Of a stretch of 64,000 nucleotides of DNA, positions 3,411 through 51,578 are shown in pieces; the stretch's first letter is position 1, and each line of letters starts with the position of its first letter. Origin of the DNA: Lichina pygmaea (lineage: Eukaryota > Ascomycota > Lichinomycetes > Lichinales > Lichinaceae). Location: assembly GCA_963422465.1 (NCBI GenBank), contig OY730174.1, positions 1 to 64,000 on the forward strand, given 5' to 3'. The translations under genes were made by a program, and so were the position numbers. Below the pieces are notes generated by a model that made no database searches, was not told the DNA's origin, and worked only from the letters and a program-made list of their open reading frames with translations.

Positions 3411-3839
3411 TGTTAAGGCCCAGGCTGGAACAGCTGAGCTGACCGAAGCAAGTGTACACAGGTACACGGAACAATATTCACCCAACCCAGTGGACAAGGT
3501 GGACGATGTGTAACCAGCTTGTCCAGCTTGTCCACGGTGGACGAGGTGGACAACATGTAACCAGCTCGTCCAGCTTGTCCACACAGAAAGCTGATACCCC
3601 TTGGGAGGACCCCCCCCCCTCAGGCTCCTGTATATAAGAACCCAGATAGCTGGAGAGAATAGCTCTCCAGACTGAACGCACATTACAAGTGATAATAGCA
3701 AGAGAGTTACCCCACTTGCTATTCATCTATTGAGTCCCTGCCCTCCTCAGTCGAAGACAGGACCACCCACATTCTGTGTGAACGTGGACTGGCCTTTAAC
3801 AGTTTCAGTCTCTAACACATAGTACACTGGCTCAATACG

Positions 3840-8300: not shown

Positions 8301-8833
8301 CTGCTATGCATGAGGAAATGAAGACTGCAATTGAATCTGCACAAAAGACAACAAGCCACTGCCTAAACAGCAAAAGGTTGAAGGGACCAACCCTGGAGAG
8401 GGGGGATAAGGTCTATTTGTCAACAAAAAACCTGCGCTCGAAGCGACCAAGCAAAAAGCTGGATCATGTACAAATCAGACTGTTTGAGATTGAGAAGCGC
8501 ACTGGAGAAGTCAACTACCGACTGAGACTGCCAAAAAAAGCATGGATACACTGAGTATTCCATGTCTCACTGCTTGAGCCAGCACCCAGCGACGCAGCAA
8601 TCAAAACAGAATGGCACTTTGAGGATGACGAAGAAGAGTACAATGTCGAAAGGATCCTAGACAGCTGGAGAAGTGGACAGAAAATTGAATACCTGGTCAA
8701 GTGGTTAGGGTACGACAATAAGGAGAACTCGTGGGAACCCACCGAGAACTTCAGCCCTGCGACGAACAAGAAACTGCGGAGTTTCCACCGACAAAACCTG
8801 CAGAAGCCAGGATCAATGGAGACAAAGGCTTGA
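5303..8833 (+). pseudogene. A1 pol polyprotein
   Basis: In the -1 frame relative to gag. The order is aspartic protease (DSGATG near 5530), RT (YIDD near 6570), RNase H, integrase (HHCC, DD35E region) and chromodomain, ending with TGA at 8831-8833. At least eight TGA stops replace CGA codons that are intact in A3: 'actgaatcc', 'tactgatca', 'agatgacaa', 'tttgacaac', 'gggtgagac', 'cagtgaggg', 'cactgacag' and 'cactgagta'. One TAG replaces TGG (near 6368). The copy is dead. Confidence 0.88.
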
Positions 8834-9281
8834 GAGAAGCCAAAGCCTCCGAAGAGAAGAAGTCCTCCAAAGGCGGCGGGGACTCCACACGCGTAGCCTC
8901 CTGCTCGAGATCCTCCTGATCCTTGATCACAGCAAGCTCACGTTTGATGGCCTCACCCTCCTTCTTGGACAACACACCCAACTGACAACAGAGACAAAGT
9001 TTGCGAGGAAGGAGAACAGACTCCTGCTCCTTGATCTCCTTCAGTTGAGTCTTGAGCTGAGTGCGCTCAAGCTCCATCTTCTCCCACTCCGACTCCGCGA
9101 GATGGAGATCACAACAGCGACCCTTCTCAAGGCACTGACCGCAAAATGTGGACTCTGAACTGACAACACACTTGGCACGGTCATGACGACATGCGCTGTA
9201 TGAAACTTTGGATACCTTGCCCATCTTGCCAACACAAGAACCGAGGACTCCACGATGATTAACACAAGATGTCCGGGTCAT
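8751..9281 (-). CDS. A1 antisense zinc-cluster protein, cluster damaged
   Basis: An open 176-codon frame convergent with pol and overlapping its tail by 83 bp. It is homologous to the intact A2 protein at 40508-41038. The Zn2Cys6 pattern has lost its first cysteine (SYSAC instead of SCSAC), and an Arg before the last cysteine has become Cys. A Glu/Lys-rich, heptad-like segment follows the cluster, predicted to be a coiled coil. The frame survives although pol is riddled with stops, but this copy probably cannot bind both zincs. Confidence 0.65.
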   Translation of the reverse strand: MTRTSCVNHRGVLGSCVGKMGKVSKVSYSACRHDRAKCVVSSESTFCGQCLEKGRCCDLHLAESEWEKMELERTQLKTQLKEIKEQESVLLPRKLCLCCQLGVLSKKEGEAIKRELAVIKDQEDLEQEATRVESPPPLEDFFSSEALASLKPLSPLILASAGFVGGNSAVSCSSQG

Positions 9282-9333: not shown

Positions 9334-9724
9334 TGTTAAGGCCCAGGCCAGAACAGCTGAGCCGACCGAAGCGAGTGTACAGAGGTACACAGAACAATAT
9401 TCACCCGACCCGGTGGACAAGGTGGACGATGTGTAACCAGCTTGTCCAGCTTGTCCACGGTGGACGAGGTGGACAACGTGTAACCAGCTTGTCCAGCTTG
9501 TCCACGCAGAAAGCTGATACCCCTCGGGAGGACCCCCCCCCCTCAGGCTCCTGTATATAAGAACCCAGATAGCCAGAGAGAATAGCTCTCCAGGCTGAAC
9601 GCACATTACGAGCGACAATAGCAAGAGAGTTACCCCACTTGCTATTCATCTATTGAGTCCCTGCCCTCCTCGGTTGAAGACAGGACCACCCACATTCTGT
9701 GTGAACGTGGACTGGCCTTTAACA
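9334..9724 (+). repeat. A1 3' LTR
   Basis: 391 bp, preceded by the purine tract GGAGGGAGGGGATGG. U3 contains GGTGGAC/GTCCACC-type inverted half-sites in two copies (about 9408-9508). TATATAAGA lies near 9554. The outer flank CCCTA matches the left flank. Confidence 0.92.
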
Positions 9725-12912
<3,188 letters not shown>

Positions 12913-13076
12913 AACAGCTCAGCCTGCAGGAGGGATGTGTTAATGACTGATCAAGTCAAATCCTCACCATCTGACTCCATCTCTTTCACCAAGCACTGAA
13001 GCTTCTGCCTTGCACAGACCTTGGCGCCCTCCAACACCTTTCACTTCTGAGACAGACAAGCCTGCACTGTGGCAAG

Positions 13077-13355
13077 TTATTTAAAGAGTGCATTGTGTGT
13101 TGCCTTGTCAGTGGCAACATCCTCACGGAGGTTGTCCCAGGACATGTTCAAAGATTCCCAGGACACAGAGATACAAGACCTTCCGTGCTGAGTGCACGCA
13201 GCACATTTCAACTTATTGTCTTCTCCCAGTATCTGGAAGCACGGATGACCACGGAGAACACAAAAGTCACAGGGTGTACGCGAAACAAAACCCTGATCGT
13301 GGATTTGAGCAGCCAGCTGAGTTTGGCTAACAGTCGCACATGACTTTGGAGGCAT
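13077..13355 (-). pseudogene. C1 antisense zinc-cluster gene, truncated
   Basis: ATG at 13355. The Zn2Cys6 cluster is intact (CDFC-X6-C-X11-CAAC-X6-C), but a CAA-to-TAA change ends the frame after 92 codons, before most of the coiled-coil segment. A minus-strand TATA (TATATAA, 13426-13432) in the 3' LTR lies about 75 bp upstream of the ATG. A CT-rich stretch, the complement of the polypurine tract, lies between them. B2 carries an intact 166-aa homologue. Confidence 0.7.
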
Positions 13356-16256: not shown

Positions 16257-16757
16257 ATGTCTGCAAAATCATGTGCCTCTGCTTACTGAAACTAACTGGC
16301 AGCCCAGATCTGTGATCATAACTTTGTGTCACTTGCTCCATGTGACTTCTGTGTTTTGAACCACAAGCCCTGCTTCTGAATGTCTGACAACAACAATAAA
16401 TTGAAGTGCGCTGAATGCACTTGTCATGGGAAGTCCTGTGTGTCACTTTCTTGGGAGTCGCTGAACATGACTTGGGATAACCTTTGTGAGGATTTGGCTG
16501 TTGATGAGGCCAAGCGGGATGCTCTTGTTGAGCAGCTTGCCAAGCTGCAGGCTTGTGTGTCCTGAAAGTGAAAGGTTCTTGAAGGTGCTGAAGGTCAAGC
16601 AAAGAAGAAGCTCCAGTGCCTTGTTGCCAAAATAGAGGTGGATGGTGAAGACTTGTCGGCGACAGTCATTGACATGTCTGCGCTGCAGGCTGAGCTGTTC
16701 AGTCCTGCCTCTGCCAGAACTGCTGCAGGAGGAGCTGGCAGTTCGTGAGGTTCCTGA
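16257..16757 (+). pseudogene. B0 antisense zinc-cluster gene, broken
   Basis: Antisense to B0 and therefore on the plus strand. The ATG at 16257 lies about 75 bp after a TATAAA in the LTR (about 16180). An early TGA (TAC-TGA, CGA in B2) and a TGA before the third cysteine (Arg codon in B2) disrupt the frame. The remaining cluster residues and coiled-coil part are recognisable by comparison with B2. Confidence 0.7.
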
Positions 16758-18292: not shown

Positions 18293-18793
18293 ATGTCTGC
18301 AAAGTCACGTGCCTCTGCTTACTGAAACCAACTGGCAGCCCAGATCTGTGATCATAACTTTGTGTCACTTGCTCTGTGTGACTTCTGTGTTTTGAACCAC
18401 AAGCCCTGCTTCCAAATGTCTGACGACAACGATAAGTTGAAGTGCGCTGAATGCACTTGTCATGGGAAGTCCTGTGTGTCACTTTCTTGGGAGTCGCTGA
18501 ACATGACTCAGGATAACCTTCGCGAGGATTTGGCTGTTGATGAGGCCAAGTGGGATGCTCTTGTTGAGCAGCTTACTGAGCTGCAGGCTTGTGTGTCCTG
18601 AAAGCGAAAGGTTCTTGAGGGTGCTGAGGGTCAAGCAAAGAAGAAGCTCCAGTGCCTTGTTGCTGAAATGGAGGCAGATGGTGAAGACTTGTCGGCGACA
18701 GTTATTGACACGTCCGCGCTGCAGGCTGAGCTGTTCAGTCCTGCTTCTGCCGGAACTGCTGCAGGAGGAGCTGGCAGTTCGCGAGGTTCCTGA
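18293..18793 (+). pseudogene. B1 antisense zinc-cluster gene, one early stop
   Basis: The ATG at 18293 has TATAAA at 18213-18218 about 75 bp upstream. A TGA replaces CGA at codon 11. Beyond it the zinc cluster (CDFC-X6-C-X11-CAEC-X6-C) is complete, but a second CGA-to-TGA at 18599-18601 splits the coiled-coil part. The end overlaps the pol stop (18735) by 59 bp. Confidence 0.72.
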
Positions 18794-26432: not shown

Positions 26433-26836
26433 TGTTAAGGCCTAGGCCGGAACAGCCCAGGTAAGCGAGGGAGAGGTGTGAGTCATGCGGAACAACATCC
26501 GACCGATCCGGTGGACAAGCAAGAGCTAAGCGAGGAGCTCGTCCGGTGGACGAGCAGGAGCTAAGCGAGGAGCTCGTCCGGTGGACGAGCAGGAGCTAAG
26601 CGAGGAGCTCGTCCACGCAAAAGGATGATACCCCTCGAGGAGACCTCCCCCCTTGGGGCATCTGTATAAAGACCCCCAAAGAGCCCGGAGGGATTAGCTC
26701 TCCAGGCTGAACGCACATTACGAGCGACAATAGCAAGAGAGTTACCCCACTTGCTATTCATCTATTGAGTCCCTGCCCTCCTCGGTCAAAGACAGGACCA
26801 CCCACATTCTGTGTGAACGTGGACTGGCCTTTAACA
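26433..26836 (+). repeat. A3 5' LTR
   Basis: TATAAA at 26665-26670. The predicted RNA start is near AGGCTGAA (26704-26711), about 34 nt downstream. That octamer is complementary to TTCAGCCT at 26839-26846, 2 nt beyond the LTR, which suggests a self-priming site. U3 array at about 26505-26618. Confidence 0.93.
26505..26618. promoter_or_regulatory. A3 U3 inverted-repeat array (candidate operator)
   Basis: A 35-bp unit is repeated about three times. Each junction forms the palindrome GCTCGTCC-GGT-GGACGAGC (26537-26555, 26572-26590). Spaced inverted half-sites suit a dimeric DNA-binding protein such as the antisense Zn2Cys6 protein, but binding is inferred only. Confidence 0.45.
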
Positions 26837-26874
26837 GTTTCAGCCTCTAACACATAGGACACCGGCTCAATACG

Positions 26875-28419
26875 ATGGCAGATCCACGCAGCCCTACCCC
26901 TTCGCAGGCAGGCCAACCTCGGGCTGCGCCTCAGGCGCAAGCCCAGGAACCACCTGTCCCTACCACCCTCACCTTACCTCCAAAGCCGTTGAAGGTAGGT
27001 ACGCCGAAGAGGTACGATGGATCACGAGGGGGATTGGAATTATTCTTCTCTCAGCTTGAGCTTTACTACGGATTCAACACCGCACAATTCCCTACGGAAC
27101 AGGAGAAGGTGCTGTTCGCAGCTTCCTACCTGGACGGACCGACATTTGCCTGGTTTAATGTCTACCTACGAGACTTCCTCGACAACAAGGAAGATCCCTC
27201 TAGCATGGAGACCACGACACGGCAGATCATTGGGAGATTCTCTACCTTCAAGACCCAGATGAAGAAGACCTTCGGGGTCATTGATGAAGAACGAGATGCG
27301 GAACGAAAGCTCCAAGCACTACGGCAGACAGGGTCAGCATCAGACTTCGCGGCGAAGTTCCAACAGTTGTCAGTGAGGACGCAATGGGGAGACAGTGCCT
27401 TGACGGTACTATTCTACCAAGCTCTCAAGGAACAAGTCAAGGATGACATCGCACGAGGAGATCGACCCACTGACCTCGAGGATATGATCGACACAGCGGT
27501 ACGCATCGACGACTGACAGTTTGAACGAGAACTTGAGAAGTGAGGCAAGCATGCAAGGCCATGGGGCAAAAAGACAGCGCCAGCACAAGACAAGTACGGC
27601 TTGACACCCATGGAGATTGATGCAACAACACCACAGGCAACAAAGAAGAAAGAAACACAGAAGTGTTACAATTGCCAGAAGGTAGGACACCTCGCAGCCA
27701 ACTGCCAAAGCAAGAAGAAGAAAGAAGGCAAGGGTAAGCAGTTGAATGCCACTGGTGCCTGGAAAGGCAAGGGCATTCAGGAGCCACCGAGGGCTCCCAG
27801 AGGCACGCTACCCATGAACCGGTCAGAAGCAACACTCCTCGGACAGGAGGACAATCTCAGACAGCACATCGAAAGACTGGAGAACGATCTGCAGAGGTCA
27901 CTGGAGGACCTGCACACAATCCAAGACCAGATCGATAAGGTTCATTGGGAGGATGACCTGATCTCCGAATTCGACACAACAGACTACGAGATTGACATAA
28001 CCGGCATGCCACCAGTTCCCGAGACACCACTACTCCGACGACAGGATGCGACCTTGTCGGAGGACAGCGAAGCAAGAGTGACGCGATGGGTGGACGACAC
28101 CATCAGCATCTCACAGCCCCGAGACATCGCAGCGCAAGTGGACTATCACCAGGCTACGACACCAGCCTGCAGACGTCCTTATTGGAAAGGATGTGAGGAC
28201 CACCACTGCAAGGAACATCTCCTAGAGAAAAGGAGAAGGCACCACTTCCCTGGCCCAGAATACCACAAGAAAGCCTGGAGCATCAAGCACCAGCTAAGCC
28301 AGCAAGGGAAAGAACACGATGATTGCGGAGAAGACGCATGGGAGCTATGCTTCACTGAAAAATGCGAAAGACACGCGGCAGAACGCCAGGCTCAGGGCCT
28401 TGGTTGTTCAAAAAACTAG
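26875..28419 (+). pseudogene. A3 gag, two internal TGA codons
   Basis: ATG 38 bp after the LTR. The capsid is rich in Gln and Glu. TGA at 27514-27516 is CGA in A1; TGA at 27541-27543 is present in all A copies. The nucleocapsid part (27601-28419) has zinc knuckle CYNCQKVGHLAANC, an acidic region, and a second Cys/His-rich patch (CEDHHCKEH). The natural stop TAG at 28417-28419 follows the AAAAAAC slip site directly. Confidence 0.87.
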
Positions 28420-31400
28420 CAGTGCTCTTCAAATCCGGAGTCGGAAGAGCAGGCAAGACAACACTCCGGAGAGAAGGGGTCGAGCAGAGCCTCGACGCGA
28501 CAGCCTGCAGTCCGCATTTTCGCATCAAGATGAGAGTCAACGGGCATCTGACAAATGCCATGATCGACTCTGGAGCTACTGGCAACTTCATGTCAGAAAG
28601 TTTCGCCAGGAAGCACAAGATCCCGACTCAGGAAAAGAGGAATCCATACCAACTAACGGTAGTGGACAGGACACCACTCTCCAACGACCAAGGACGAGTG
28701 ACGAAGGAGACCAAGAACCTACGACTGTGTGTCGACGGTACGACAATCAGATCAGAAGAATTCGACTTGGTCCAGATACTACATGAAGTTATATTGGGTC
28801 TTCCGTGGTTGGAAAGTCAAAACCCAAGGATCGACTGGAAAAGAAGGCACCTAGTCTTTCCGAAGAGGAGTCTGGCAACTCGAGCAGAGCCAGAGAAAGT
28901 GAGAATCAAAGAGATCTTATATGCAGGGTGGAAGAAGCACCACCGGCGAGGGCGAGCCTATGTGGCTTGGATGAAGCCCCGAAACCATCAACTTTGCACC
29001 ACGCATGACGCCGTGGGCGAGACTCAGGCACCGCAGCTGCCAAGTGAGTATAAAGACTACCAGGAGATGTTTGGTGAGGAAGTGGTCGCGACGCTACCAG
29101 AACACCAAGAGTGGGATCACGAAATTCCGCTGGAAGACGGAAAGAAACCCACACATGGCCCTATTTACACTCTATCAGCAAAGGAGCTTGAGGCCCTAAG
29201 AGATTACCTGGACGAGAACCTAGCGAAAGGGTTCATAAGACCTTCAACATCACCGGCCGGATACCCGATATTGTTTGTGCCAAAGAAAGACGGCAAATTA
29301 CGACTGTGTGTCGACTACCGGCAGCTCAATGCGATCACGATTAAGAATCGCTACCCGCTACTGTTAATATCGGAAATCCAGGACCGAATCCAAGGAGCCA
29401 AGTGGTTTACCAAATTCGACATCCGAGGCGCTTTCAACCTGGTTAGGATGAAAGATGGCGAAGAATGGAAGACAGCCTTTCGTACGAGGTACGGGCATTA
29501 CGAGTATACCGTTATGCCATTCGGCCTTACGAATGCACCGGCGACGTTCCAATCGCTCATTAACGCCATCCTCCGACAATACCTGGATATATTTGTTACC
29601 GCTTATATCGATGATGTCTTGGTTTACACCAATGGAACCCTGGAGGAGCACAAACAGCATGTCAAGAAGATCCTACATGCGCTCCAAGAAGCAGGAATGA
29701 GGTTACGCCTTGATAAGAGCGTCTTCCACGTGAAAGAAGTGGAATATTTGGGATCAATCCTGACGACGGAAGGAATCCGTATGGACGATACAAAGATCAC
29801 GGCAGTACGAGACTGGCCAACACCCAAAAACCTCAAAGAAGTCCAATCCTTCCTGGGATTTGCGAACTTCTACCGACGATTCATCAAGGAGTACTCGAGG
29901 ACAGCAGCACCCTTGACTGAACTAACAAAGAAGGAAGAAACCTTCACATGGGGGAACAGCCAAGAGAGAGTGTTCCAGGAGCTGAAAGAGAAGTTCACCT
30001 CCGCACCCATACTGGCATCATTTGATCCCGGACGGCGGATCATCATGGAGACAGATGCCTCGGACCAAGCACTTGGATCTTGCTTGTGTCAACCAGACGC
30101 CGAAAACCGCCTACACCCTGTCGCATACCGATCGAGAAAGTTCTCTGGCCCAGAACTCAGGTACGATGTTCATGACAAGGAGTTGTTAGCGATTGTCGAC
30201 GCATTCCAGGAGTGGAGACCTTACCTGGAAGGAGCAAAGTACACAGTGGACGTGTACTCAGACCACAAGAATTTGGCTTACTTCACGACGACGAAGAAGC
30301 TAAACAGACGACAAGTCCGATGGGCGGAGCTTTTAGCTTCATACGACTTCCAGATCTTCTATCAAAAAGGATCAGAAAACGCACGAGCGGACGCGCTTAG
30401 CAGACGGCCTGATATGACGACAGACGACACGACAGAAGAGCGCCCAATCCTAGTGACAAAAGGACAAACTCTGGTCTATGCTCAACCTCAGTTAGCGAAA
30501 ACTGAAGAAATGGGTGCACTCCTGACCCTAGGCCACAACGTTGCGGCCACGAACAAGGAAGAAGTGCCAGAGAGCGCACAAGAGGACGTGATTCGACAAC
30601 ATCACGATGGACCTCTACACAGACATCCTGGGCGAGACAAGACCCTGGAAAAGATCCGGAGACGTTACCACTTCAACGGAATGAAGCGGAAAGTGACGGA
30701 ATTTATTCGTAACTGCGAAGAGTGTGCGAAAAACAAACCGTCACGCCACAAACCCTATGGAGAGAGTCAACAAATGGACCTCCCAGAAGCGGCTTGGGAT
30801 ACTATCACAATGGATTTTGTGGTGAAGCTGCCGAGGTCAGAGGACCTGGTAACAAAGGTGAAATATGACAGTATCTTGGTGGTTGTTGACAAACTCACCA
30901 AATACGCTCACCTGATCCCGTGGCGAGAGACAGGAACAGCGAGCGAACTCGCCAATGTCCTGCTCAAAGAATTGGTTAGCCAGCGAGGGCTACCCACGAA
31001 GATTATCTCAGATCGAGACAAACTCTTCACCTCGAAATTCTGGAACACGTGGACAAGACAGCTAGGGATAGACACGAGGATGTCTACTGCCTACCATCCA
31101 CAAACAGACGGACAAACTGAGAGAACAAACCAGACGATGGAACAGTACCTACGCCACTACGTCAACCACCGACAGGACGATTGGGTAGAACTGCTACCAA
31201 TGGCTCAGTTTGCGTACAACGATCAGCAACACAGCATGACGGGCATGACGCCGTTCTTTGCGAACTACGGCAGAAACCCCCGCTGGGAAGCGATGGCGGC
31301 TGGAAGTGGCACTTCAACGAACGTCGAAAAACTCACTGCTATGCATGAGGAAATGAAGACTGCAATTGAATCCGCACAAAAGACAACAAGCCACCACCTA

Positions 31401-31949
31401 AACAGCAAAAGGTTGAAGGGACCAACCCTGGAGAGGGGGGATAAGGTCTATTTGTCAACAAAAAACCTGCGCTCGAAGCGACCGAGCAAAAAGCTGGATC
31501 ATGTACGAATCGGACCGTTTGAGATTGAGAAGCGCACTGGAGAAGTCAACTACCGACTGAGACTGCCAAAAAAGGCATGGATACACCGAGTATTCCATGT
31601 CTCGCTGCTCGAGCCAGCACCCAGCGACGCAGCAATCAAAACAGAATGGCACTTCGAGGACGATGAAGAAGAGTACGATGTCGAAAGGATCCTAGACAGT
31701 CGGAGAAACGGACGGAAAATCGAGTACCTGGTGAAGTGGTTAGGATTTGACGAAGAGGAGAATTCGTGGGAACCAACCGAGAACTTCAGCTCTGCGATGA
31801 ACCGGAAACTGGTGGATTACCACCGAGCAAATCCGCAGCGACCAGGTCCGACGGAGATAACGGCTCGAGAGAAGCCAAAGCCTCTGAAGAGAAGACGTCC
31901 TCAAAGGACGGTGGAGCAGCAGCTTGACGGGCCTCCTGTTCGCGGATAA
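28362..31949 (+). CDS. A3 pol polyprotein (protease, RT, RNase H, integrase, chromodomain)
   Basis: An open frame of 1195 codons, translated by -1 frameshifting from gag. Its listed Met lies upstream of the slip site and need not be a start. Residues counted from it: aspartic protease DSG at 69-71; RT with [18 protein letters not shown] around 305-325 and the active site YIDD at 415-418; RNase H beginning near METDASDQ (562); integrase zinc finger H753, H755, C785, C788; catalytic D818, D884, E920 (DD35E); chromodomain about 1104-1145 (YLVKWLGFDEEENSWEP). This order is that of Ty3/Gypsy chromoviruses. The chromodomain would direct integration to marked chromatin. All catalytic residues checked are present. 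Confidence 0.95.
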   Translation: MRKTRGRTPGSGPWLFKKLAVLFKSGVGRAGKTTLRREGVEQSLDATACSPHFRIKMRVNGHLTNAMIDSGATGNFMSESFARKHKIPTQEKRNPYQLTVVDRTPLSNDQGRVTKETKNLRLCVDGTTIRSEEFDLVQILHEVILGLPWLESQNPRIDWKRRHLVFPKRSLATRAEPEKVRIKEILYAGWKKHHRRGRAYVAWMKPRNHQLCTTHDAVGETQAPQLPSEYKDYQEMFGEEVVATLPEHQEWDHEIPLEDGKKPTHGPIYTLSAKELEALRDYLDENLAKGFIRPSTSPAGYPILFVPKKDGKLRLCVDYRQLNAITIKNRYPLLLISEIQDRIQGAKWFTKFDIRGAFNLVRMKDGEEWKTAFRTRYGHYEYTVMPFGLTNAPATFQSLINAILRQYLDIFVTAYIDDVLVYTNGTLEEHKQHVKKILHALQEAGMRLRLDKSVFHVKEVEYLGSILTTEGIRMDDTKITAVRDWPTPKNLKEVQSFLGFANFYRRFIKEYSRTAAPLTELTKKEETFTWGNSQERVFQELKEKFTSAPILASFDPGRRIIMETDASDQALGSCLCQPDAENRLHPVAYRSRKFSGPELRYDVHDKELLAIVDAFQEWRPYLEGAKYTVDVYSDHKNLAYFTTTKKLNRRQVRWAELLASYDFQIFYQKGSENARADALSRRPDMTTDDTTEERPILVTKGQTLVYAQPQLAKTEEMGALLTLGHNVAATNKEEVPESAQEDVIRQHHDGPLHRHPGRDKTLEKIRRRYHFNGMKRKVTEFIRNCEECAKNKPSRHKPYGESQQMDLPEAAWDTITMDFVVKLPRSEDLVTKVKYDSILVVVDKLTKYAHLIPWRETGTASELANVLLKELVSQRGLPTKIISDRDKLFTSKFWNTWTRQLGIDTRMSTAYHPQTDGQTERTNQTMEQYLRHYVNHRQDDWVELLPMAQFAYNDQQHSMTGMTPFFANYGRNPRWEAMAAGSGTSTNVEKLTAMHEEMKTAIESAQKTTSHHLNSKRLKGPTLERGDKVYLSTKNLRSKRPSKKLDHVRIGPFEIEKRTGEVNYRLRLPKKAWIHRVFHVSLLEPAPSDAAIKTEWHFEDDEEEYDVERILDSRRNGRKIEYLVKWLGFDEEENSWEPTENFSSAMNRKLVDYHRANPQRPGPTEITAREKPKPLKRRRPQRTVEQQLDGPPVRG
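28410..28470 (+). promoter_or_regulatory. -1 ribosomal frameshift signal (slip site plus H-type pseudoknot)
   Basis: AAAAAAC (28410-28416) sits in the gag frame as xxA-AAA-AAC, just before the gag stop TAG. After a 6-nt spacer, stem 1 pairs TGCTCTTC (28423-28430) with GAAGAGCA (28444-28451). Stem 2 pairs TCCGGAGT (28434-28441) with ACTCCGGA (28463-28470). Loops are 3, 2 and 11 nt. Pol is open in the -1 frame across the site. A2 keeps every paired base; A1 has one change in stem 2. Confidence 0.88.
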
Positions 31950-32358
31950 TGCGGAGGGCCTCTTGTTCCTGAGCATCGAGGGACTCTTGATCCTCGATGG
32001 CTGACAGCTCACGACGGATGGCATCGGCCTCCTTCTGTGAGAGACGACCCAGCTGCCGGCGGAGGCGGATCTGCCGGGGAAGCAGTTTTGACAGTTGGTC
32101 ATCAGTCTCCCGCAGCTGAGCCTCAAGCTGCTCACGCTCAAGCTCCATCTTCTTCCATTCCGATTCCGAGAGATGAAGGTCGCAGCGACGACCCTTCTCG
32201 ATGCACCGACGACAAAAAGACGATGCAGAACTCACGACACACTTGGCGTGGTCGCGACGACAAGCACCGCATGCGATTTTTGATTCCTTGCCCATTTTGC
32301 CAACACGACAAGAGAGAAAACTGCGACGACGAGTTCGAGTTGTCTGGCTTTGGTTCAT
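31786..32358 (-). CDS. A3 antisense Zn2Cys6 coiled-coil protein
   Basis: 190 codons, convergent with pol and overlapping its last 164 bp. The basic N-terminus is followed by a zinc binuclear cluster, CGAC-X6-C-X8-CRRC-X6-C, which fits the fungal Zn2Cys6 consensus. A long Glu/Gln/Lys/Arg-rich region with heptad leucines follows, predicted to be a coiled coil, then an acidic C-terminus. There is no middle homology region or long activation domain, so this is a minimal DNA-binding and dimerising protein. Upstream lies a CT-rich stretch, the complement of the polypurine tract; no TATA was found for this family. Role inferred: regulation of the element. The start could be the later MGK. Confidence 0.8.
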   Translation of the reverse strand: MNQSQTTRTRRRSFLSCRVGKMGKESKIACGACRRDHAKCVVSSASSFCRRCIEKGRRCDLHLSESEWKKMELEREQLEAQLRETDDQLSKLLPRQIRLRRQLGRLSQKEADAIRRELSAIEDQESLDAQEQEALRIIREQEARQAAAPPSFEDVFSSEALASLEPLSPSDLVAADLLGGNPPVSGSSQS

Positions 32359-32419
32359 GGCAAAAGAGGAGCAGGAACAAAAAGGATCTGGGGACAGAAC
32401 CCTTGGAGGGAGGGGATAG

Positions 32420-32823
32420 TGTTAAGGCCTAGGCCGGAACAGCCCAGGTAAGCGAGGGAGAGGTGTGAGTCATGCGGAACAACATCCGACTGATCCGGTG
32501 GACGAGCAAGAGCTAAGCGAGGAGCTTGTCCGGTGGACGAGCAGGAGCTAAGCGAGGAGCTCGTCCGGTGGACGAGCAGGAGCTAAGCGAGGAGCTCGTC
32601 CACGCAAAAGGATGATACCCCTCGAGGAGACCCCCCCCCTTGGGGCATCTGTATAAAGACCCCCAAAGAGCCCGGAGGGATTAGCTCTCCAGGCTGAACG
32701 CACATTACGAGCGACAATAGCAAGAGAGTTACCCCACTTGCTATTCATCTATTGAGTCCCTGCCCTCCTCGGTCGAAGACAGGACCACCCACATTCTGTG
32801 TGAACGTGGACTGGCCTTTAACA
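32420..32823 (+). repeat. A3 3' LTR
   Basis: 404 bp, same length as the 5' LTR. It follows the tract GGAGGGAGGGGATAG. The right target copy CCTGA lies at 32824-32828. Confidence 0.94.
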
Positions 32824-34665: not shown

Positions 34666-35145
34666 TGTTGCGGTCTGTACTGTACTGTCCTATCTGAGTA
34701 TAGGATTAGGGTGAGAGGTGGAAGGCAGGTTGGTTCTCGCAGGAGAGGAGTGTCAAGGAGTGTGAAAGAGTTTGGTGGAATGTGGTGGTGGTGACACCTG
34801 ATCAATGGCTTCGTACAAAAGGATTGTATTGAAGTAGATCTAGTTGTCTGGATCACAACATAAGTTGAAGATGATTGTTCCATAAGGGAACTATCGCCAG
34901 ACTATATAGTGCTGGCCTGTCAAGACAATCAAGATTGTCTTGACAGTCTTGACGTCAAGATGGGTGAGATTGTCTTGACAGTCCCACCATGTTATGCACC
35001 CTGCGTCAAGACAGGTGAGATTGTCTTGATGCTTCATGCATCCTGTGTTGAGATTGGTGAGATTGTCTTGATGCTTCATGCATCCTGCGTCAAGACTGGT
35101 GAGATTGTCTCAATGCTTCATGCATGCTGTGTCAAGACTCCTGTG
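34666..35145 (-). repeat. B0 5' LTR, first part
   Basis: LTR-B in reverse orientation with 42-bp U3 units at 35000-35135. Cut at 35145 by A2 (target CTGTG) and continues at 41504-41629. Confidence 0.88.
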
Positions 35146-35221
35146 TGTTAAGGCCCAGGCCGGAACGGCTGAGCTGACCGAAGCGAGTGTACAGAGGTAC
35201 ACGGAACAATGTTCACCCGAC

Positions 35222-35342
35222 CCGGTGGACGAGGTGGACGATGTGTAACCAGCTCGTCCAGCTCGTCCACGGGAACAATGTTCACCCGACCTGGTGGACG
35301 AGGTGGACGATGTGTAACCAGCTCGTCCAGCTCGTCCACGCA
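35222..35342. promoter_or_regulatory. A2 U3 inverted-repeat array (candidate operator)
   Basis: Two units of about 65 bp, each with GTGGACGAG half-sites repeated directly and the complement CTCGTCCAC repeated directly about 20 bp later. The same array occurs in both A2 LTRs and in A1, where CpG decay turns half-sites into CTTGTCCAC. Confidence 0.42.
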
Positions 35343-35596
35343 GAAAGCTGATACCCCTCGGGAGGACCCCCCCCCCTCAGGCTCCTGTATATAAGAACCC
35401 AGATAGCCGGAGAGAATAGCTCTCCAGGCTGAACGCACATTACGAGCGACAATAGCAAGAGAGTTACCCCACTTGCTATTCATCTATTGAGTCCCTGCCC
35501 TCCTCGGTCGAAGACAGGACCACCCACATTCTGTGTGAACGTGGACTGGCCTTTAACAGTTTCAGCCTCTAACATATAGGACACCGGCTCAATACG

Positions 35597-37141
35597 ATGG
35601 CAGATCCACGCAGCCCTACCCCTTCGCAGGCAGGCCAAGCCCGGGCTGCGCCTCAGGCGCAAGCCCAGGAACCACCTGTCCCTACCACCCTCACCTTACC
35701 TCCAAAGCCGTTGAAGGTAGGTACGCCGAAGAGGTACGATGGATCACAAGGGGGATTGGAATTATTCTTCTCTCAGCTTGAGCTTTACTACAGATTCAAC
35801 ACCGCACAATTCCCTACGGAACAGGAGAAGGTGCTGTTCGCAGCTTCCTACCTGGACAGACTGACATTTGCCTGGTTCAATGTCTACCTACAAGACTTCC
35901 TCGACAACAAGGAAGACTCCTCTAGCATGGAGACCATGACACGGCAGATCATTGGGAGATTCTCTACCTTCAAGACCCAGATGAAGAAGACCTTCGGGGT
36001 CATTGATGAAGAACAAGATGCGGAACGAAAGCTCCAAGCACTACGGCAGACAGGGTCAGCATCAGACTTTGCGGCGAAGTTCCAACAGTTGTCAGTGAGG
36101 ACACAATAGGGAGACAGTGCCTTGACGGCACTATTCTACCAAGCTCTCAAGGAACGAGTCAAGGATGACATCGCACGAGGAGACCGACCCACCGACCTCG
36201 AGGATATGATCGACACAGCGGTACGCATTGACGACTGACAGTTCGAACGAGAACTTGAGAAGTGAGGCAAGCATGCAAGGCCATGGGGCAAAAAGACAGC
36301 GCCAGCACAAGACAAGTACGGCTTGACACCCATGGAGATTGATGCAACAACACCACAGGCAACAAAGAAGAAAGAAACACAGAAGTGTTACAATTGCCAG
36401 AAGGTAGGACACCTCGCAGCCAACTGCCAAAGCAAGAAGAAGAAGGAAGGCAAGGGTAAGCAGTTGAATGCCACCAGTGCCTGGAAAGGCAAGGGCATTC
36501 AGGAGCCACCGAGAGCTCCCAGAGGCACGCTACCCATGAACCGGTCAGAAGCAACACTCCTCGGACAGGAGGACAATCTCAGACAGCACATCGAAAGACT
36601 GGAGAACGATCTGCAGAGGTCACTGGAGGACCTGCACACAATCCAAGACCAGATCGATAAGGTTCATTGGGAGGATGACCTGATCTCCGAATTCGACACA
36701 ACAGACTACGAGATTGACATAACCGGCATGCCACCAGTTCCCGAGACACCACTACTCCGACGACAGGATGCGACCTTGTCGGAGGACGGCGAAGCAAGAG
36801 TGACGCGATGGGTGGACGACACCATCAGCATCTCACAGCCCCGAGACATCGCAGCGCAAGTGGACCATCACCAGGCTACAACACCAGCCTGCGGACGTCC
36901 TTATTGGAAAGGATGCGAGGACCACCACTGCAAGGAACATCTCCTAGAGAAAAGGAGAAGGCACTACTTCCCTGGCCCAGAATACCACAAGAAAGTCTGG
37001 AGCATCAAGCACCAGCTAAGCCAGCAAGGGAAAGAACGTGATGATTGCGGAGAAGACGCATGGGAGCTATGCTTCACCGAAAAGTGCGAAAGACACGCGG
37101 CAGAACGCCAGGCTCAGGGCCTTGGTTGTTCAAAAAACTAG
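35597..37141 (+). pseudogene. A2 gag
   Basis: As A3 gag, with a TGG-to-TAG stop at 36107-36109 and TGA codons near 36236 and 36263. The nucleocapsid part is open (36323-37141). The slip site AAAAAAC lies at 37132-37138, immediately before the TAG at 37139-37141. Confidence 0.86.
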
Positions 37142-40100: not shown

Positions 40101-40590
40101 AAAGACAACAAGCCACCACCTAAACAGCAAAAGGTTGAAGGGACCAACCCTGGAGAGGGGGGATAAGGTCTATTTGTCAACAAAAAACCTGCGCTCGAAG
40201 CGACTGAGCAAAAAGCTGGATCATGTACGAATCGGACCGTTTGAGATTGAGAAGCGCACTGGAGAAGTCAACTACCGACTGAGACTGCTAAAAAAGGCAC
40301 GGATACACTGAGTATTCCATGTCTCGCTGCTCGAGCCAGCACCCAGCGACGCAGCAATCAAAACAGAATGGCACTTCGAGGACGACAAAGAAGAGTACAA
40401 TGTCGAAAGGATCCTAGACAGCCGGAGAAGCGGACGGAAAATCGAATACCTGGTCAAGTGGTTAGGGTACGACAATGAGGAGAACTCGTGGGAACCCACC
40501 GAGAACTTCAGCCCTGCGACAAACAAGAAACTGCGGAGTTTCCACCGACAAAACCCGCAGAAGCCAGGATCGATGGAGACAAAGGCCTGA
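37045..40590 (+). pseudogene. A2 pol polyprotein
   Basis: In the -1 frame. The domain order is as in A3, ending in a chromodomain and a TGA at 40588-40590. Stops at about 37675, 38107, 38296, 38596, 39646, 39706 and 40309 are all TGA where A3 has CGA. RT YIDD is intact near 38330. Confidence 0.88.
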
Positions 40591-41038
40591 GAGAAGCCAA
40601 AGCCTCCGAAGAGAAGAAGTCCTCCAAAGGTGGCGGGGACTCCACACGCGTAGCCTCCTGCTCGAGATCCTCCTGATCCTCGATCGCAGCAAGCTCACGC
40701 TTGATGGCCTCACCCTCCTTCTTGGACAACACACCCAACTGACGACAGAGACGAAGTTTGCGAGGAAGGAGAACAGACTCCTGCTCCTCGATCTCCTTCA
40801 GTTGAGCCTCGAGCTGAGTGCGCTCAAGCTCCATCTTCTCCCACTCCGACTCCGCGAGATGGAGATCACAACGGCGACCCTTCTCAAGGCACTGACCGCA
40901 AAATGTGGACTCTGAACTGACAACACACTTGGCACGGTCACGACGACATGCGCTGCATGAAACTTTGGATACCTTGCCCATCTTGCCAACATGAGAACCG
41001 AGGACTCCACGACGATTAACACAAGACGTCCGGGTCAT
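40508..41038 (-). CDS. A2 antisense Zn2Cys6 coiled-coil protein
   Basis: 176 codons with an intact cluster CSAC-X6-C-X8-CGQC-X6-C, then a Glu-rich heptad region predicted to be a coiled coil and an acidic, Ser/Pro-rich end. It overlaps the pol tail by 83 bp. The sequence clearly differs from the A3 protein outside the cluster, while A2 and A3 gag-pol are almost identical. The frame is intact although pol has seven stops. Role inferred: DNA-binding regulator of the family. Confidence 0.78.
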   Translation of the reverse strand: MTRTSCVNRRGVLGSHVGKMGKVSKVSCSACRRDRAKCVVSSESTFCGQCLEKGRRCDLHLAESEWEKMELERTQLEAQLKEIEEQESVLLPRKLRLCRQLGVLSKKEGEAIKRELAAIEDQEDLEQEATRVESPPPLEDFFSSEALASLRPLSPSILASAGFVGGNSAVSCLSQG

Positions 41039-41503
41039 GGTAAGAGAAGCGAGAGGATCTGGGGACAGAACCTTTGGAGAGAGGGGATGGTGTTAAGGCC
41101 CAGGCCGGAACGGCTGAGCTGACCGAAGTGAGTGTACAGAGGTACACGGAACAATGTTCACCCGACCCGGTGGACAAGGTGGACGATGTGTAACCAGCTT
41201 GTCCAGCTCGTCCACGGGAACAATGTTCACCCGACCCGGTGGACGAGGTGGACGATGTGTAACCAGCTTGTCCAGCTCGTCCACGCAGAAAGCTGATACC
41301 CCTCGGGAGGACCCCCCCCCCTCAGGCTCCTGTATATAAGAACCCAGATAGCCGGAGAGAATAGCTCTCCAGGCTGAACGCACATTACGAGCGACAATAG
41401 CAAGAGAGTTACCCCACTTGCTATTCATCTATTGAGTCCCTGCCCTCCTCGGTCGAAGACAGGACCACCCACATTCTGTGTGAACGTGGACTGGCCTTTA
41501 ACA

Positions 41504-46800: not shown

Positions 46801-47193
46801 GGGGATAAAGTCTACCTCCTCACAAGAAATTGGAAAACGAAGAAACCAAGAACAAAGAAACTGGACTATGTCAAGGTCAGACTATTTTCAGTCGAAGAAA
46901 AAACCAGACCAGTCAACGTCAGACTGCGACTACCGAGAGACGCTCGGGTACACCCAAACTTTCACATCTCAATGATCAAATTAGCCGACCAGAGCACACC
47001 CTTGCAGGAAACATTTCATTACCAACCAGAGGAAGAACAGGAATTTGAGGCCGAACAGATCCTGAAGAGAAAAGGTCAGCGATACCTTGTCAAGTGGAAA
47101 GATTACCCAGACTCGGAAAATACCTGGGAGCCACTCAGGAATCTCGCGAACTGCCAGCTCCTCCTGCAGCAGTTCCGGCAGGAGCAGGACTGA
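43813..47193 (+). pseudogene. B2 pol polyprotein, one TAA stop and altered RT active site
   Basis: Open 43813-45387 (protease DSGASG at residues 55-60, RT). A TAA at 45385-45387 (CAA in B1) follows, then it is open to 47193 (RNase H, integrase HHCC and catalytic core, chromodomain [18 protein letters not shown]). The RT motif at 45028-45039 reads YLDN instead of YLDD, so the second catalytic Asp is lost. With these defects the element could move only in trans, unless the changes arose after insertion. Confidence 0.88.
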
Positions 47194-47635
47194 ACAGCTC
47201 GGCCTGCAGCGCGGACGCATCAATGACTGTCGCCGACAAGTCTTCACCATCCACCTCTATTTCAGCAACAAGGCACTGGAGCTTCTTCTTTGCTCGACCC
47301 TCAGCACCCTCAAGAACCTTTCGCTTTCGGGACACACGAGCCTGCAGCTCGGCAAGCTGCTCGACAAGAGCATCCCGCTTGGCCTCATCAACAGCCAAAT
47401 CCTCGCGAAGGTTATCCTGAGTCATGTTCAGTGACTCCCAAGAAAGTGACACACAGGACTTTCCCCGACGAGTGCACTCAGCGCACTTCAACTTATCGTT
47501 GTTGTCAGACATTCGGAAGCAGGGCTTGTGGTTCAAAACACAGAAGTCACACGGAGCAAGTGACACGAAGTTATGATCACAGATCTGGGCTGCCAGTTGG
47601 TTTCGGTAAGCAGAGGCACATGATTTTGCAGACAT
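47135..47635 (-). CDS. B2 antisense Zn2Cys6 coiled-coil protein
   Basis: Intact, 166 aa from ATG at 47635 (MSAKSCAS). The zinc cluster CDFC-X6-C-X11-CAEC-X6-C spans about residues 28-60. It is followed by a leucine heptad segment (DALVEQLAELQARVSRKRKVL) predicted to form a coiled coil, then a Gly/Ala/Ser-rich tail. The frame overlaps the pol end by 59 bp. On its own strand, TATAAA (47709-47714) lies 74 bp upstream in the 3' LTR and a CT-rich stretch lies between. This looks like a real, separately transcribed gene. Established: Zn2Cys6 proteins are fungal DNA-binding regulators. Inferred: it acts on the LTR arrays. Confidence 0.82.
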   Translation of the reverse strand: MSAKSCASAYRNQLAAQICDHNFVSLAPCDFCVLNHKPCFRMSDNNDKLKCAECTRRGKSCVSLSWESLNMTQDNLREDLAVDEAKRDALVEQLAELQARVSRKRKVLEGAEGRAKKKLQCLVAEIEVDGEDLSATVIDASALQAELFSPAPAGTAAGGAGSSRDS

Positions 47636-47679
47636 ACTCAAGAATTCATCAGGACGATGAATGAAGGAGAGGAGGGTAG

Positions 47680-48277
47680 TGTTACGACCCAGGGATAGGA
47701 GCCACTCATTTATAGGCAATCAGGCCGCGGGCCAGGCAAGAGGACACCATGGAAGTCAAGTGACCAACCAACAAAGGGTCATGTGACTGTCGAGACACAC
47801 ACGGGAGTCTTGACGCATGATGCATGAAGCATCAAGACAATCTCACCAGTCTTGACGCATGATGCATGAAGCATCGAGACAATCTCACCAGTCTTGACGC
47901 ATGATGCATGAAGCATCAAGACAATCTCACCAGTCTTGACGCAGGGTGCATAACATGGTGGGACTGTCGAGACAATCTCACCTGTCTTGACGTCAAGACT
48001 GTCGAGACAATCTCGATCATCTCGACAGGCCAGCACTATATAGTCTGGCGATAGTTCCCTTATAGAACAATTGTCTTCAACTCATGTTGTGATCTAGACA
48101 ACTAGATCTACTTCAATACAATCCTTTGTACGAAGCCGTGATCAGGTGTCACCACCACCACGTTCCACCAAACCCCTTCGCACTCCTTGACACTCCTCTC
48201 CTGCGAGAACCAACCCGCCTTCCGCCTCTCGCCCTAATCCTATACTCGGATAGGACGGTACGGTACAGACTGCAACA
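47680..48277 (+). repeat. B2 3' LTR
   Basis: 598 bp, preceded by the tract GGAGAGGAGGGTAG. One more 42-bp unit than the 5' LTR. Its antisense TATAAA at 47709-47714 serves the antisense gene. Confidence 0.93.
47709..47714 (-). promoter_or_regulatory. Antisense promoter TATA box of B2
   Basis: TATAAA on the minus strand inside the 3' LTR U3, 74 bp upstream of the antisense ATG at 47635. The box is kept in B0, B1 and B2; family C has TATATAA at the equivalent place. The 5' LTR copy would fire outward into flanking DNA. Confidence 0.55.
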
Positions 48278-49954
48278 GCAGACAGCAAGTGGCACCCAGT
48301 TGCCTACTACTCACGAAAAATGACACAAGCAGAACAAAACTATGATATCCACGACAAAGAGCTACTGGCAGTTGTCAACGCACTCAAACACTGGAGAGTG
48401 TACGCAGAAAGCAGTTCTGAACTCACTGTTCTCACAGACCACAAGAATCTGACAATGTTCATGACAACCAAGAAGCTGAACAGACAGCAAGTCAGATGGG
48501 CTGAACTCCTAGGGCAACATAAGTTCAAGATCTTGTACACCCCTGGACAAGACAACAGGAGAGCAGACGTACTAAGCTGACGAAAAGACTACATGGAAGA
48601 TGATGAACACCAAGGAACAATCTTACAGCAGGACCAGTAAGGGAACCTGGTGCCTCAACCACAGATCAACAAGCTCACAGCAGAAGACACTGAAGAACTA
48701 ATAAGGAACTACCACGACAATCCAGTACATGGTCACCCAGGAATCTCCAAGACTACAGACCTTATCCAACAGGCAGGGAACAATGTCATTAACCTCTGAC
48801 AACATGTCACAAGCTACATCAGCAAGTGTCTACTATGCCAGAAAAACAAACATGGAAGACATAAGCTATACGGAGAAGGACACCCGAACACGATACCGAG
48901 AGGCCTGTGGGAAGACGTGTCAATAGACTTCATCACAAAGCTACCCAAGTCCAAAGACCCAGTCACAGGAATCACCTACGACTTGATTATGGTGATAGTG
49001 GACAGATTCACAAAATACCTAATAGTAGTACTATTCAAGGAGACCCACACAGCAGAACAGTTAGGACACCTCTTACTGGACAGATTAGTCAGAGACCACG
49101 GAGTTCCAATCACGATCATTACAGACAGAGACAAACTCTTCACATCCAACTACTGGAAGACAATCAGTGCAGCCATGGGAACAAAACCCAAAATGTCTAC
49201 AGCCTATCACCCACGAACTGACAGCCAGACAGAGCAAGCAAACCAAGTCCTGGAGACTTACTTACAGCATTACATCAACCAGACCCACAGCAATTGGGTA
49301 CAGTTATTACTGGTGGCACAGCTGGCAATCAACCAGCACAGATCAGACTCAACAAAGGAATCACTATTTTTTGCTAATTTTGGACAACATGCAAACATCA
49401 GGATGCCAAGCAGAGCTTCACCAAACACGGAGAAAGCACTCCAACATGACAAGCTCCTACAACAAACACACACGATGATGAGGCACTACCTTCAAGAGAC
49501 CTCAGAAAGAATGCAATGTCAAATGGACAAGAAATCAAAAATAGCATCTCAGCTAAAGAAGGGGGATAAAGTCTACCTTCTCACAAGAAATTGGAAAACA
49601 AAGAAACTAAAGACAAAGAAACTTGACAACATCAAGGTCAGACTATTTTCAGTCGAAGAAAAAACAGGACCAGTCAACATCAAGATACGACTACCAAGGG
49701 ATGCCAGAGTCTATCCAAACTTTCATATATTGATGATTGAACCAGCTGACCAGAGCACACCCTTGCAGGAAACATTCTATTATCAACCCGAAGAAGAACA
49801 AGAGTTTGAAGTTGAACAGATCCTGGCTAGAAAAGGTCAGCAATACCTTGTCAAGTGGAAAGGATACCCAGACTCAGAAAATACCTGGAAACCACTCAAG
49901 AACCTTGTGAACTGCCAGCTTCTTCTGCGACAGTTTCAGCAGGAGCAGGACTGA
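48278..49954 (+). pseudogene. C2 pol (RNase H, integrase, chromodomain)
   Basis: Continues C2 after B2. RNase H 48320-48580, with CGA-to-TGA stops at 48578 and near 48798. The integrase core to chromodomain is open for 345 codons (48917-49954), including DRDKLFTSNYW and [18 protein letters not shown]. Confidence 0.83.
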
Positions 49955-49959
49955 ACAGC

Positions 49960-50396
49960 TCGGCCTGCAGGAGAGACATGTCAATAACTGATCAAGTCAA
50001 ATCCTCGCCATCTGACTCCATCTCTTTCACCAAGCACTGAAGCTTCTGCCTCGCACAGACCTTGGTGCCCTCCAACACCTTTCACTTCTGAGACAGACAA
50101 GCCTACACTGTGGCAAGTTGTTCAAAGAGTGTGTCACGTGTTGCCTTGTCAGTGGCCACATCCTCACGGAGGTTGTCCCGGGACATGTTCAGAGATTCCC
50201 AGGACACAGAGACACAAGACCTTCCGCACTGAGTGCACGCAGCACATTTCAACTTATCATCTTCTCCCAACATCTAGAAGCACGGATGACCACGGAGAAC
50301 ACAAAAGTCGCAGGGCGTACGTGAAACAAAACCCTGATCGCAGATTTGAGCAGTAAGCTGAGTTCGGCTAACAGTCGCACATGACTTTGGAGGTAT
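49960..50396 (-). pseudogene. C2 antisense zinc-cluster gene, dead
   Basis: Same position as the C1 antisense gene. The start codon is ATA (50396) instead of ATG, and a TAG (CAG in C1) follows the third cysteine. CDFC, the third Cys and the CAAC half of the cluster are still visible. The antisense TATA in the 3' LTR (near 50467) is kept. Confidence 0.6.
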
Positions 50397-50439: not shown

Positions 50440-51120
50440 TGTTACGACCCAGGAGGAACACAGTCTTTATATACTCACAGAAAGCAGCAGACAGGATACT
50501 GGACAGAAGTACCAGGCAGCGTGACACGGGAACCAGTCACGTGACTGGCGAGACAAACCAGGGGGTGCTCGCCGCAGCATGTATATGCACGAACAAGTGA
50601 GCAAAGTGAGCAGAGCTCACCCAGCTCACCGCAGCGTGCATGAAAAGTGAGCAGAGTGAGCAGAGCTCACCCAGCTTGCTGCAGCGTGCATGAACAAGTG
50701 AGCAAAGTGAGCAGAGCTCACCCAGCTCGCCGCAGCGTACATGAACAAGTGAGCAAAGTGAGCAGAGCTCACCCAGCTCGCCGCAGCGTGCATGAACTGT
50801 GAGCAAAGTGAGCAGGGCTCACTGATCTCACCAAGTGAGCAAAGTGAGCAGAGCTCACTGTGCTCACAAACTGAGCACTATATAGTCCGGCGATAGTTCT
50901 CTTATGGAATGATTGTCTTCAACTCATGTTGTGATCCAGACAACTAGATCTACTTCAATACAATCCTTTTGTACGAAGCCGTTGATCAGGTGTCACCACC
51001 ACCACGTTCCACCAAACCCCTTCGCGCTCCTTGACACTCCTCTCCTGCGAGAACCAACCCGCCTTCCGCCTCTCGCCCTAATCCTATACTCGGATAGGAC
51101 AGTACGCACGGACCGCAACA
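50440..51120 (+). repeat. C2 3' LTR
   Basis: 681-bp C-type LTR after the tract GGAGAGGAGGATAG, ending CGGACCGCAACA. U3 at about 50584-50870 holds five units of about 51 bp with GTGAGC-N3-GTGAGC-N3-GCTCAC-N3-GCTCAC symmetry, the largest C array in the window. Confidence 0.92.
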
Positions 51121-51138: not shown

Positions 51139-51368
51139 CAGAGCAGGCAGGGCACAATACCTCTCAAGTGAAACACCCCCTCTGGGGCTTCTGTATATAA
51201 GAGCACCCAGATAGCTGGAGAGAATAGCTCTCCAGACTGAACACACTAGCAACAACAATAGCAAGAGAGTTACCTATCTTGCTATTTATCTATTGAGTCT
51301 CTGTTCTGATAGACACCTGCACAGTCCAGCCACCTTCTGTGTGAACCTGAGTGGCCTGGCTCTTAACA
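51139..51368 (+). mobile_element. Divergent LTR-A relative (A'), 5'-truncated
   Basis: About 230 bp alignable to the 3' half of LTR-A: TATATAAGAG, AATAGCTCTCCAGACTGAAC, GAGAGTTACC, and an end GGCTCTTAACA. The left part is missing, presumably lost with the chromosome end. It marks the boundary to unique DNA. Confidence 0.72.
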
Positions 51369-51578
51369 ACACATCACACACACCAAGCACTCTTCTCTCT
51401 GATAGAAGTAGATGCCCAGTGCTTCGCAGAGTCCACAACCATAGACTCTAGCATATAAAGTCTGGTGGAGAACTCTCTCTTCTTTTTTTTTCTCTATGGA
51501 GAAAGTCTACAGAATTGTCCAAGTATTGACTGAGGGAAGCTGATCAAGAACACAGACGAACCAGACTGTAAAATCCCG
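51369..51578. other. Intergenic, boundary of unique sequence
   Basis: 210 bp between the A' LTR and the stop of the STAND gene. It has a T-rich run at 51481-51494. No gene or repeat seen. Confidence 0.6.

Follow-up and report, generated by a model that had tools for sequence, protein, structure and literature searches.

In the Boty-like Gypsy elements of fungi, an additional antisense gene, brtn, is described between pol and the 3' LTR (PMC7264820), and Boty itself is described as a fungal Gypsy element with a chromodomain (PMC4227169). Among plant retrotransposons, Retand contains an antisense ORF whose product is predicted to bind DNA, with tandem repeats nearby, and a regulatory role was proposed for it in the source cited (PMC11963269). 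The HTLV-1 provirus encodes on its minus strand the antisense bZIP protein HBZ, which is expressed from a promoter in the 3' LTR and lowers sense expression (PMC10186651), and control of Ty1 copy number by p22/p18 is described in PMC4599808, PMC7055915 and PMC8458377. Self-limitation of LTR retrotransposons is known for few systems. The brtn gene of Boty-like elements is reportedly treated by Zhao et al. 2011, Virology 417:248. The preliminary description of the locus analysed here, according to which chromoviruses are not generally described as having such a gene, was too strong, since antisense brtn is in print for the fungal Boty (PMC7264820, PMC8365987).

The window, a stretch of 64,000 nucleotides of Lichina pygmaea DNA, comes from the telomeric beginning of contig C6 in an assembly of 32.47 Mb and eight contigs, and its first ~51 kb are a heap of Gypsy elements. 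Element A3 (Table 1) is a Ty3/Gypsy chromovirus, with reverse transcriptase, RNase H and integrase, a C-terminal chromodomain and LTRs; the pol tail of B2 also gives a Chromo match (1.4e-15, about 47053-47181). An antisense ORF sits between pol and the 3' LTR in all eight named copies, and tblastn in the window located it at eight places, which match every copy for which it had been claimed. In A3 this ORF, which encodes a predicted zinc cluster and then a predicted long helix, shares 164 nt with the pol ORF, and its start codon is found some 60 nt into the 3' LTR. Intact frames, claimed for A3, A2 and B2, were found in each of them, and also in A1, which had been omitted and whose antisense protein has lost the first cysteine. 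The assertion that every family carries the gene holds for the types present in the window, which are the types that were checked. Genome-wide searches with the A3, A2 and B2 antisense queries gave at least 150 matches each, the A3 and A2 sets overlapping, and many of the genome copies among the matches listed carry stops.

Table 1. Positions in the window of the antisense genes, element A3, the exchanged cassettes and the U3 arrays
Feature	Position	Strand	Basis or remark
A3 antisense gene, 190 aa, C-X2-C-X6-C-X8-C-X2-C-X6-C, 0 stops	31786..32358	-	ORF, tblastn
A2 antisense gene, 176 aa, 0 stops	40508..41038	-	ORF, tblastn
A1 antisense gene, open, 0 stops, 91% identity to A2, tblastn match 8754-9281	8751..9281	-	ORF, tblastn
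B2 antisense gene, 166 aa, X11 loop, 0 stops	47135..47635	-	ORF, tblastn
Antisense gene taken as that of B0, 6 stops	16257..16745	+	tblastn
Antisense gene taken as that of B1, 2 stops	18293..18790	+	tblastn
C1 antisense gene, 3 stops	12858..13355	-	tblastn
C2 antisense gene, 4 stops	49899..50387	-	tblastn
Element A3, LTR to LTR, complete	26433..32823	+	LTRs 26433-26836 / 32420-32823, 98.8% identity
A3 gag ORF	26875..27516	+	Pfam Retrotrans_gag, Ty3_capsid
A3 pol ORF (protease, RT, RNase H, integrase, chromodomain)	28362..31949	+	Pfam
A3 chromodomain	about 31674-31814	+	Pfam Chromo 4.2e-13
Exchanged cassette, A3 relative to A2: antisense gene and U3	31720..32680 (edges approximate)	.	identity profile
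Exchanged cassette, B2 relative to C2, chromodomain included	46900..48035 (edges approximate)	.	identity
A3 U3 array, 35-nt unit x3.1	32494..32601; 5' LTR copy 26507-26614	.	
A2 U3 array, 69-nt unit x2	41148..41285; 5' LTR copy 35203-35340	.	
A1 U3 array, 47-nt unit x2	9411..9506; other LTR 3490-3582	.	
B2 U3 array, 42-nt unit x3.5	47806..47951	.	
C2 U3 arrays, about 50-nt unit x4.7, then 36-nt unit x2.2	50586..50877	.	

An A-like LTR piece at 51157-51370 is about 80% like family A with a different upstream sequence, and possibly represents a further U3 type. The transposon block is directly adjoined by an open ORF of 1272 aa (51579-55397, minus strand) with NACHT-type NPHP3_N, winged helix and WD40 repeats (STAND/NLR-like). 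The rest of the window contains an ORF matching part of the fructosamine kinase domain (57327-58058, plus strand), a ketopantoate reductase split over two ORFs (ApbA and ApbA_C; 58818-60071, minus strand), and adjacent ORFs with a centrosomin N-terminal motif and PACT pieces (60590-62548, minus strand), the latter two being probably one spliced gene each.

The antisense product had been described as a Zn2Cys6-type cluster followed by a coiled coil, a view which agrees with the cysteine spacing, the A-led profile comparison and the predicted helix. Of 50 proteins with 140 aa or more, a set that includes P0001-P0003 and many near-identical copies, 43 keep the six-cysteine pattern. Both X6 spacings are exact in 41 of them, the other two (P0008 and P0184) have X5 and X8, respectively, before the third cysteine, and the seven proteins without the pattern either begin within the cluster or are missing a cysteine. 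The X8 loop in A3 and the X11 loop in B2 are likewise as claimed. Matches to Pfam Zn_clus fall below the 21-bit cut-off for P0001 (16.1 bits) and P0002 (16.0 bits), and P0003 has none at E<=1. Within two homolog alignments, labelled A1 and A2 independently of the elements, Zn_clus is matched by 6 of 19 members of the former (best E 0.00076) and by 2 of 15 members of the latter (best E 0.13). When the A-led profile, built from 19 homologs, was compared with PDB, 13 of the 19 chains at E<=10 were zinc-cluster proteins by name, GAL4 being the best (E 0.0091); zinc-cluster chains account for none of the five matches of the B-led profile. AlphaFold places a helix at residues 65-147 of the A3 protein (pLDDT 94-98 over residues 71-140, 76-84 in the cluster region) and at residues 66-128 of the B2 protein, where it is mostly confident and the cluster is poor (pLDDT 42-60). 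Both models contain short helices after the first and fourth cysteines, with moderate (A3) and low (B2) confidence. Because of the predicted helix, the protein is probably dimeric.

Relatives were returned by three protein searches (76, 62 and 181 proteins). One of them derives from a Watsoniomyces obsoletus MAG (Lichinomycetes), and P0095 is encoded in the same genome as the elements described here. A search beyond this genome, which the preliminary description had recommended, did find homologs: the three proteins tested, P0083, P0133 and P0164, reach identities of 66, 66 and 55% to the genome as their best values among the matches listed, and thus come from elsewhere. Short contigs are the source of diverged relatives in which none of the six cysteines is missing. 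With the B-like alignment as query, no relative was confirmed in 57 and 434 pattern stretches of IMG/VR contigs and GTDB genomes, respectively. Two copies on other contigs (C3:4397789-4398163 and C7:1389390-1389761), 100% and 87% identical to P0095, apparently belong to a fifth antisense type.

The relationship between elements A2 and A3 changes abruptly along their length. Between 26720 and 31720 identity per 100 columns amounts to 93-100%, and in the R-U5 windows to 99-100%, but it falls to 44-81%, gaps counted, at about 31720-32680, where the antisense gene and U3 are located. The break is visible within the 3' LTR itself, in which U3 is 64.5% identical (259 columns) and the remainder 100% (141 columns). 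The same picture emerged from 39 loci, 8 of A3 type and 31 of A2 type. Pol distance (1410 nt) is 0.026 between the types, compared with 0.032 within A2 and 0.014 within A3; the 10 major-allele differences between them include no fixed one, and the pol tree mixes the types, A3-type L005 grouping with A2-type L026 with a support of 0.95. The distance in the antisense gene is 0.274 between types, against 0.016 within A3 and 0.033 within A2, and in the 480 nt upstream of this gene, comprising the leader and the whole 3' LTR, it is 0.226 between types versus 0.005 and 0.052 within them. With pol and R-U5 shared and the block of antisense gene and U3 diverged, the most fitting view of A2 and A3 is that of a single retrotransposon which occurs with either of two cassettes of ancient divergence. 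A single pair, B2 and C2, suggests a second case of exchange in the B/C elements, with identities of 92.3% in pol, 68.7% in the antisense gene, 53.4% in U3 and 95.1% in R-U5; pol identity is already down to 77-86% from about 46911. In the A elements the cassette has its right edge close to where R is expected to begin, and in B/C just upstream of that point, at the TATA-like box. We infer that these edges fit template switching during reverse transcription.

Each U3 contains a type-specific tandem array, which lies upstream of the sense TATA-like box, in the interval from there to the start of the antisense gene; in the B U3s overall, the 42-nt unit is repeated 2.5-5.5 times. The 7-mer CGTCCAC is common to the U3s of A3 and A2, with 4 and 5 occurrences, respectively, on both strands. 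Palindromes with six-base arms number 5 in the U3 of A3, 1 in A2, 13 in B2 and 27 in C2, and the maxima in 300 shuffles (8, 9, 12 and 12, in the same order) are exceeded only by B2 and C2. The usual half-site of Zn2Cys6 proteins is CGG/CCG. These triplets were considered as the U3 target and dropped, as they are not enriched there. A CGAG/CTCG core, picked post hoc and with a score inflated by the tandem arrays, gave z of 4.2 in A3, 1.1-2.1 in A2, A1 and two B U3s, and 0.5 in C2, or 2.2-4.7 when CpG decay was allowed for, gag-pol being without excess; this core is a lead only.

The simplest reading of the gene, the arrays and their joint exchange would be a dimeric zinc-cluster protein, made from the 3' side, that acts on the U3 arrays. 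Our preferred explanation, to which we assign a probability of roughly 0.56, is that the antisense ORF is a functional gene for a small, probably dimeric Zn2Cys6 regulator of its own U3, built of a zinc cluster, a short linker and a coiled-coil helix, and exchanged together with this U3. The gene would be transcribed leftward from the 3' LTR, which would place U3 between two diverging promoters, the sense promoter of the 5' LTR and the antisense promoter of the 3' LTR. The zinc-cluster protein may then recognise half-sites repeated in tandem in the U3 of its own element and set the level of sense transcription. Damping of this transcription as copy number rises appears more likely than activation, for two reasons: the more resident copies there are, the more regulator they would supply, and swapping the regulator along with its sites would then be of advantage, as in lambdoid phages. 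Template switches near the end of pol and near the U3/R border would move the gene and its target sites as one cassette. As the antisense gene adjoins U3, joint exchange can also be a by-product of reverse transcription.

In lambdoid phages, the immunity region, a regulator gene with its target sites, is exchanged as one block between elements that are otherwise almost identical. A possible, albeit doubtful, extension of the proposed regulation would be a phage-like immunity cassette, in which the antisense protein is a repressor and U3 contains its operators, and block swapping between elements with the same pol lets those with a new cassette escape the resident repression. A half-site sequence common to A2 and A3 speaks against specificities that are wholly separate. 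Most fungal Zn2Cys6 proteins that have been characterised activate transcription, and this, together with the arrays lying upstream of the TATA-like box, would suit a Tax-like transactivator which binds the U3 arrays of its own element and raises sense transcription. The present evidence does not separate activation from repression; nevertheless, the antisense position would link the supply of such a regulator to the 3' LTR rather than to gag-pol output, and we regard this alternative as rather unlikely.

Another function to be weighed follows from the position of the chromodomain, which lies wholly within the swapped block in B2 and partly in the A elements, where the edge near 31720 falls inside it. 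The antisense gene and the chromodomain can therefore move together, and the protein might act on host chromatin or the integration complex (in targeting, tethering or counter-silencing) rather than on U3. This would leave unexplained the family-specific U3 arrays and the divergence of U3 along with the gene, and seems improbable to us.

The antisense ORF is a real gene under purifying selection between element types, strongest on the zinc cluster. Outside the pol overlap, dN/dS between A3 and A2 has a median of 0.203 over 248 pairs (8 A3-type by 31 A2-type copies), and single pairs give 0.16-0.20. By part, it is 0.065 in the zinc cluster and 0.124 in the linker (34 and 10 saturated pairs omitted, respectively), 0.178 in the coil, 0.383 in the pol overlap and 0.739 in the N-tail. 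Between B and C it is 0.11-0.17, though both C copies have stops. In each pair the observed ratio was below all 1000 randomised divergences (0.158 against a minimum of 0.40, and in two further pairs 0.17 against 0.26 and 0.126 against 0.35), the randomised means being 0.85 and 0.73, and the frame stayed open in only 1.3% of the randomised A3/A2 sequences. The corresponding open-frame test gave no support in B/C, where the stops in C1 and C2 (3 and 4) are near the null mean of 4.6, so that dN/dS alone speaks for selection there. Differences at codon positions 1/2/3 were 30/21/61, 45/28/76 and 41/25/80 in three pairs (p<1e-5). Sense coding across the antisense region was ruled out by 4-23 stops per pair in the five other frames, of which only the frame of the gag-pol strand opposite the codons, itself broken by 9-11 stops, shows low ratios (0.27-0.37). 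Within one type, the neutrality of young copies, named beforehand as evidence against a gene, gave a mixed outcome, pN/pS being 0.83 within A2 and 0.37 within A3. Most of these copies are probably dead, and hence such values say little; the A copies were picked as the best antisense matches, which skews the sample to young ones.

Functions of antisense RNA are known in retroviruses (PMC10186651) and were proposed for plant elements (PMC7264820), and in principle the transcript itself might matter here, through dsRNA silencing or interference, with the ORF secondary. Selection on amino acids, most of all on the zinc cluster, and the bias among codon positions are not predicted by an RNA function, which makes this explanation very improbable. 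A captured fragment of a host gene without function, which the stops in many copies and the pN/pS of 0.83 within A2 might bring to mind, is hardly credible given a between-type dN/dS of 0.11-0.20 and the frames that are open in A2 and A3 alike despite the divergence of these types.

One argument for selection had to be abandoned. The intact antisense frame of A2 beside a broken pol was offered as such evidence, and A2 pol, for which at least seven stops were claimed, indeed has nine upstream of codon 1190, at which the pols of other A2-type elements end too. The frame is open because it contains no CGA codon, and 103 of the 115 pol stops in 22 A2-type copies arose from CGA->TGA (12 from TGG->TAG); in these 22 elements, 103 of 682 CGA cells of pol were turned to TGA. 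Across the same number of A2-type copies, the antisense gene has one stop. At the other prone codons, the stop rate of the antisense gene (1/176 cells) is similar to that of pol (12/1474; p 1.0) and lower than that of gag (10/378), the latter difference not being significant (p 0.19). Among the genome matches listed, 53 of 61 A2-type rows (identity >=86%) are stop-free. The predominance of CGA->TGA among the pol stops of A2-type elements (e.g. 35145-41503) suggests decay of CpG sites rather than classical RIP at CpA; in A2-type gag, CAA and TGG account for a relatively larger share of the stops.

Set beside the known systems, the gene resembles brtn, by description only, in being antisense, between pol and the 3' LTR, in a fungal Gypsy element with a chromodomain. 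It shares the antisense position between pol and the 3' LTR with aORF-3R of the plant elements Retand, Grande and RIRE2, which belong to a non-chromovirus lineage and of which Retand is described with TRP28 (PF04195) instead of a zinc cluster; TRP28 has no match in P0001-P0003 at E<=1 in Pfam. HBZ, whose promoter lies in the 3' LTR, is likewise encoded antisense in an LTR element, but it is a retroviral bZIP protein without a zinc cluster that acts through host partners, and no homology was seen: Pfam found no bZIP in P0001-P0003, nor is one among the families listed for two homolog alignments (the best 25 of 30, and 19). With regulators of the GAL4/PUT3/HAP1/LEU3 type the protein has in common the cysteine spacing and a predicted helix after the cluster, and differs in its length of 166-190 aa, its retrotransposon origin, the absence of any further Pfam domain above cut-off, and, with regard to GAL4-type proteins, a supposed U3 target without CGG enrichment. 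Ty1 p22/p18 is comparable in that the element itself encodes a factor that limits its family, a role putative here, although it is described as Gag-derived and as disturbing particles rather than binding DNA. No antisense Zn2Cys6 gene of a retrotransposon, nor its exchange with U3, was found among the titles and abstract openings listed in text searches, and in a survey of fungal LTR elements (PMC3248453) a term search of the main text gave neither 'antisense' nor 'zinc'. Antisense retrotransposon genes as such are already known from Boty and plant elements. The proteins described here offer natural zinc clusters of small size together with arrays that are candidate targets, and the proposed regulation, if true, would account for the persistence of long-diverged U3s among elements that have one pol in common. 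The likeness to the lambdoid immunity region is an analogy of design, with repression and immunity putative here; if the proposal is true, a DNA-binding regulator inherited and exchanged with its own promoter would bring the regulator-operator logic of temperate phages to eukaryotic retroelements.
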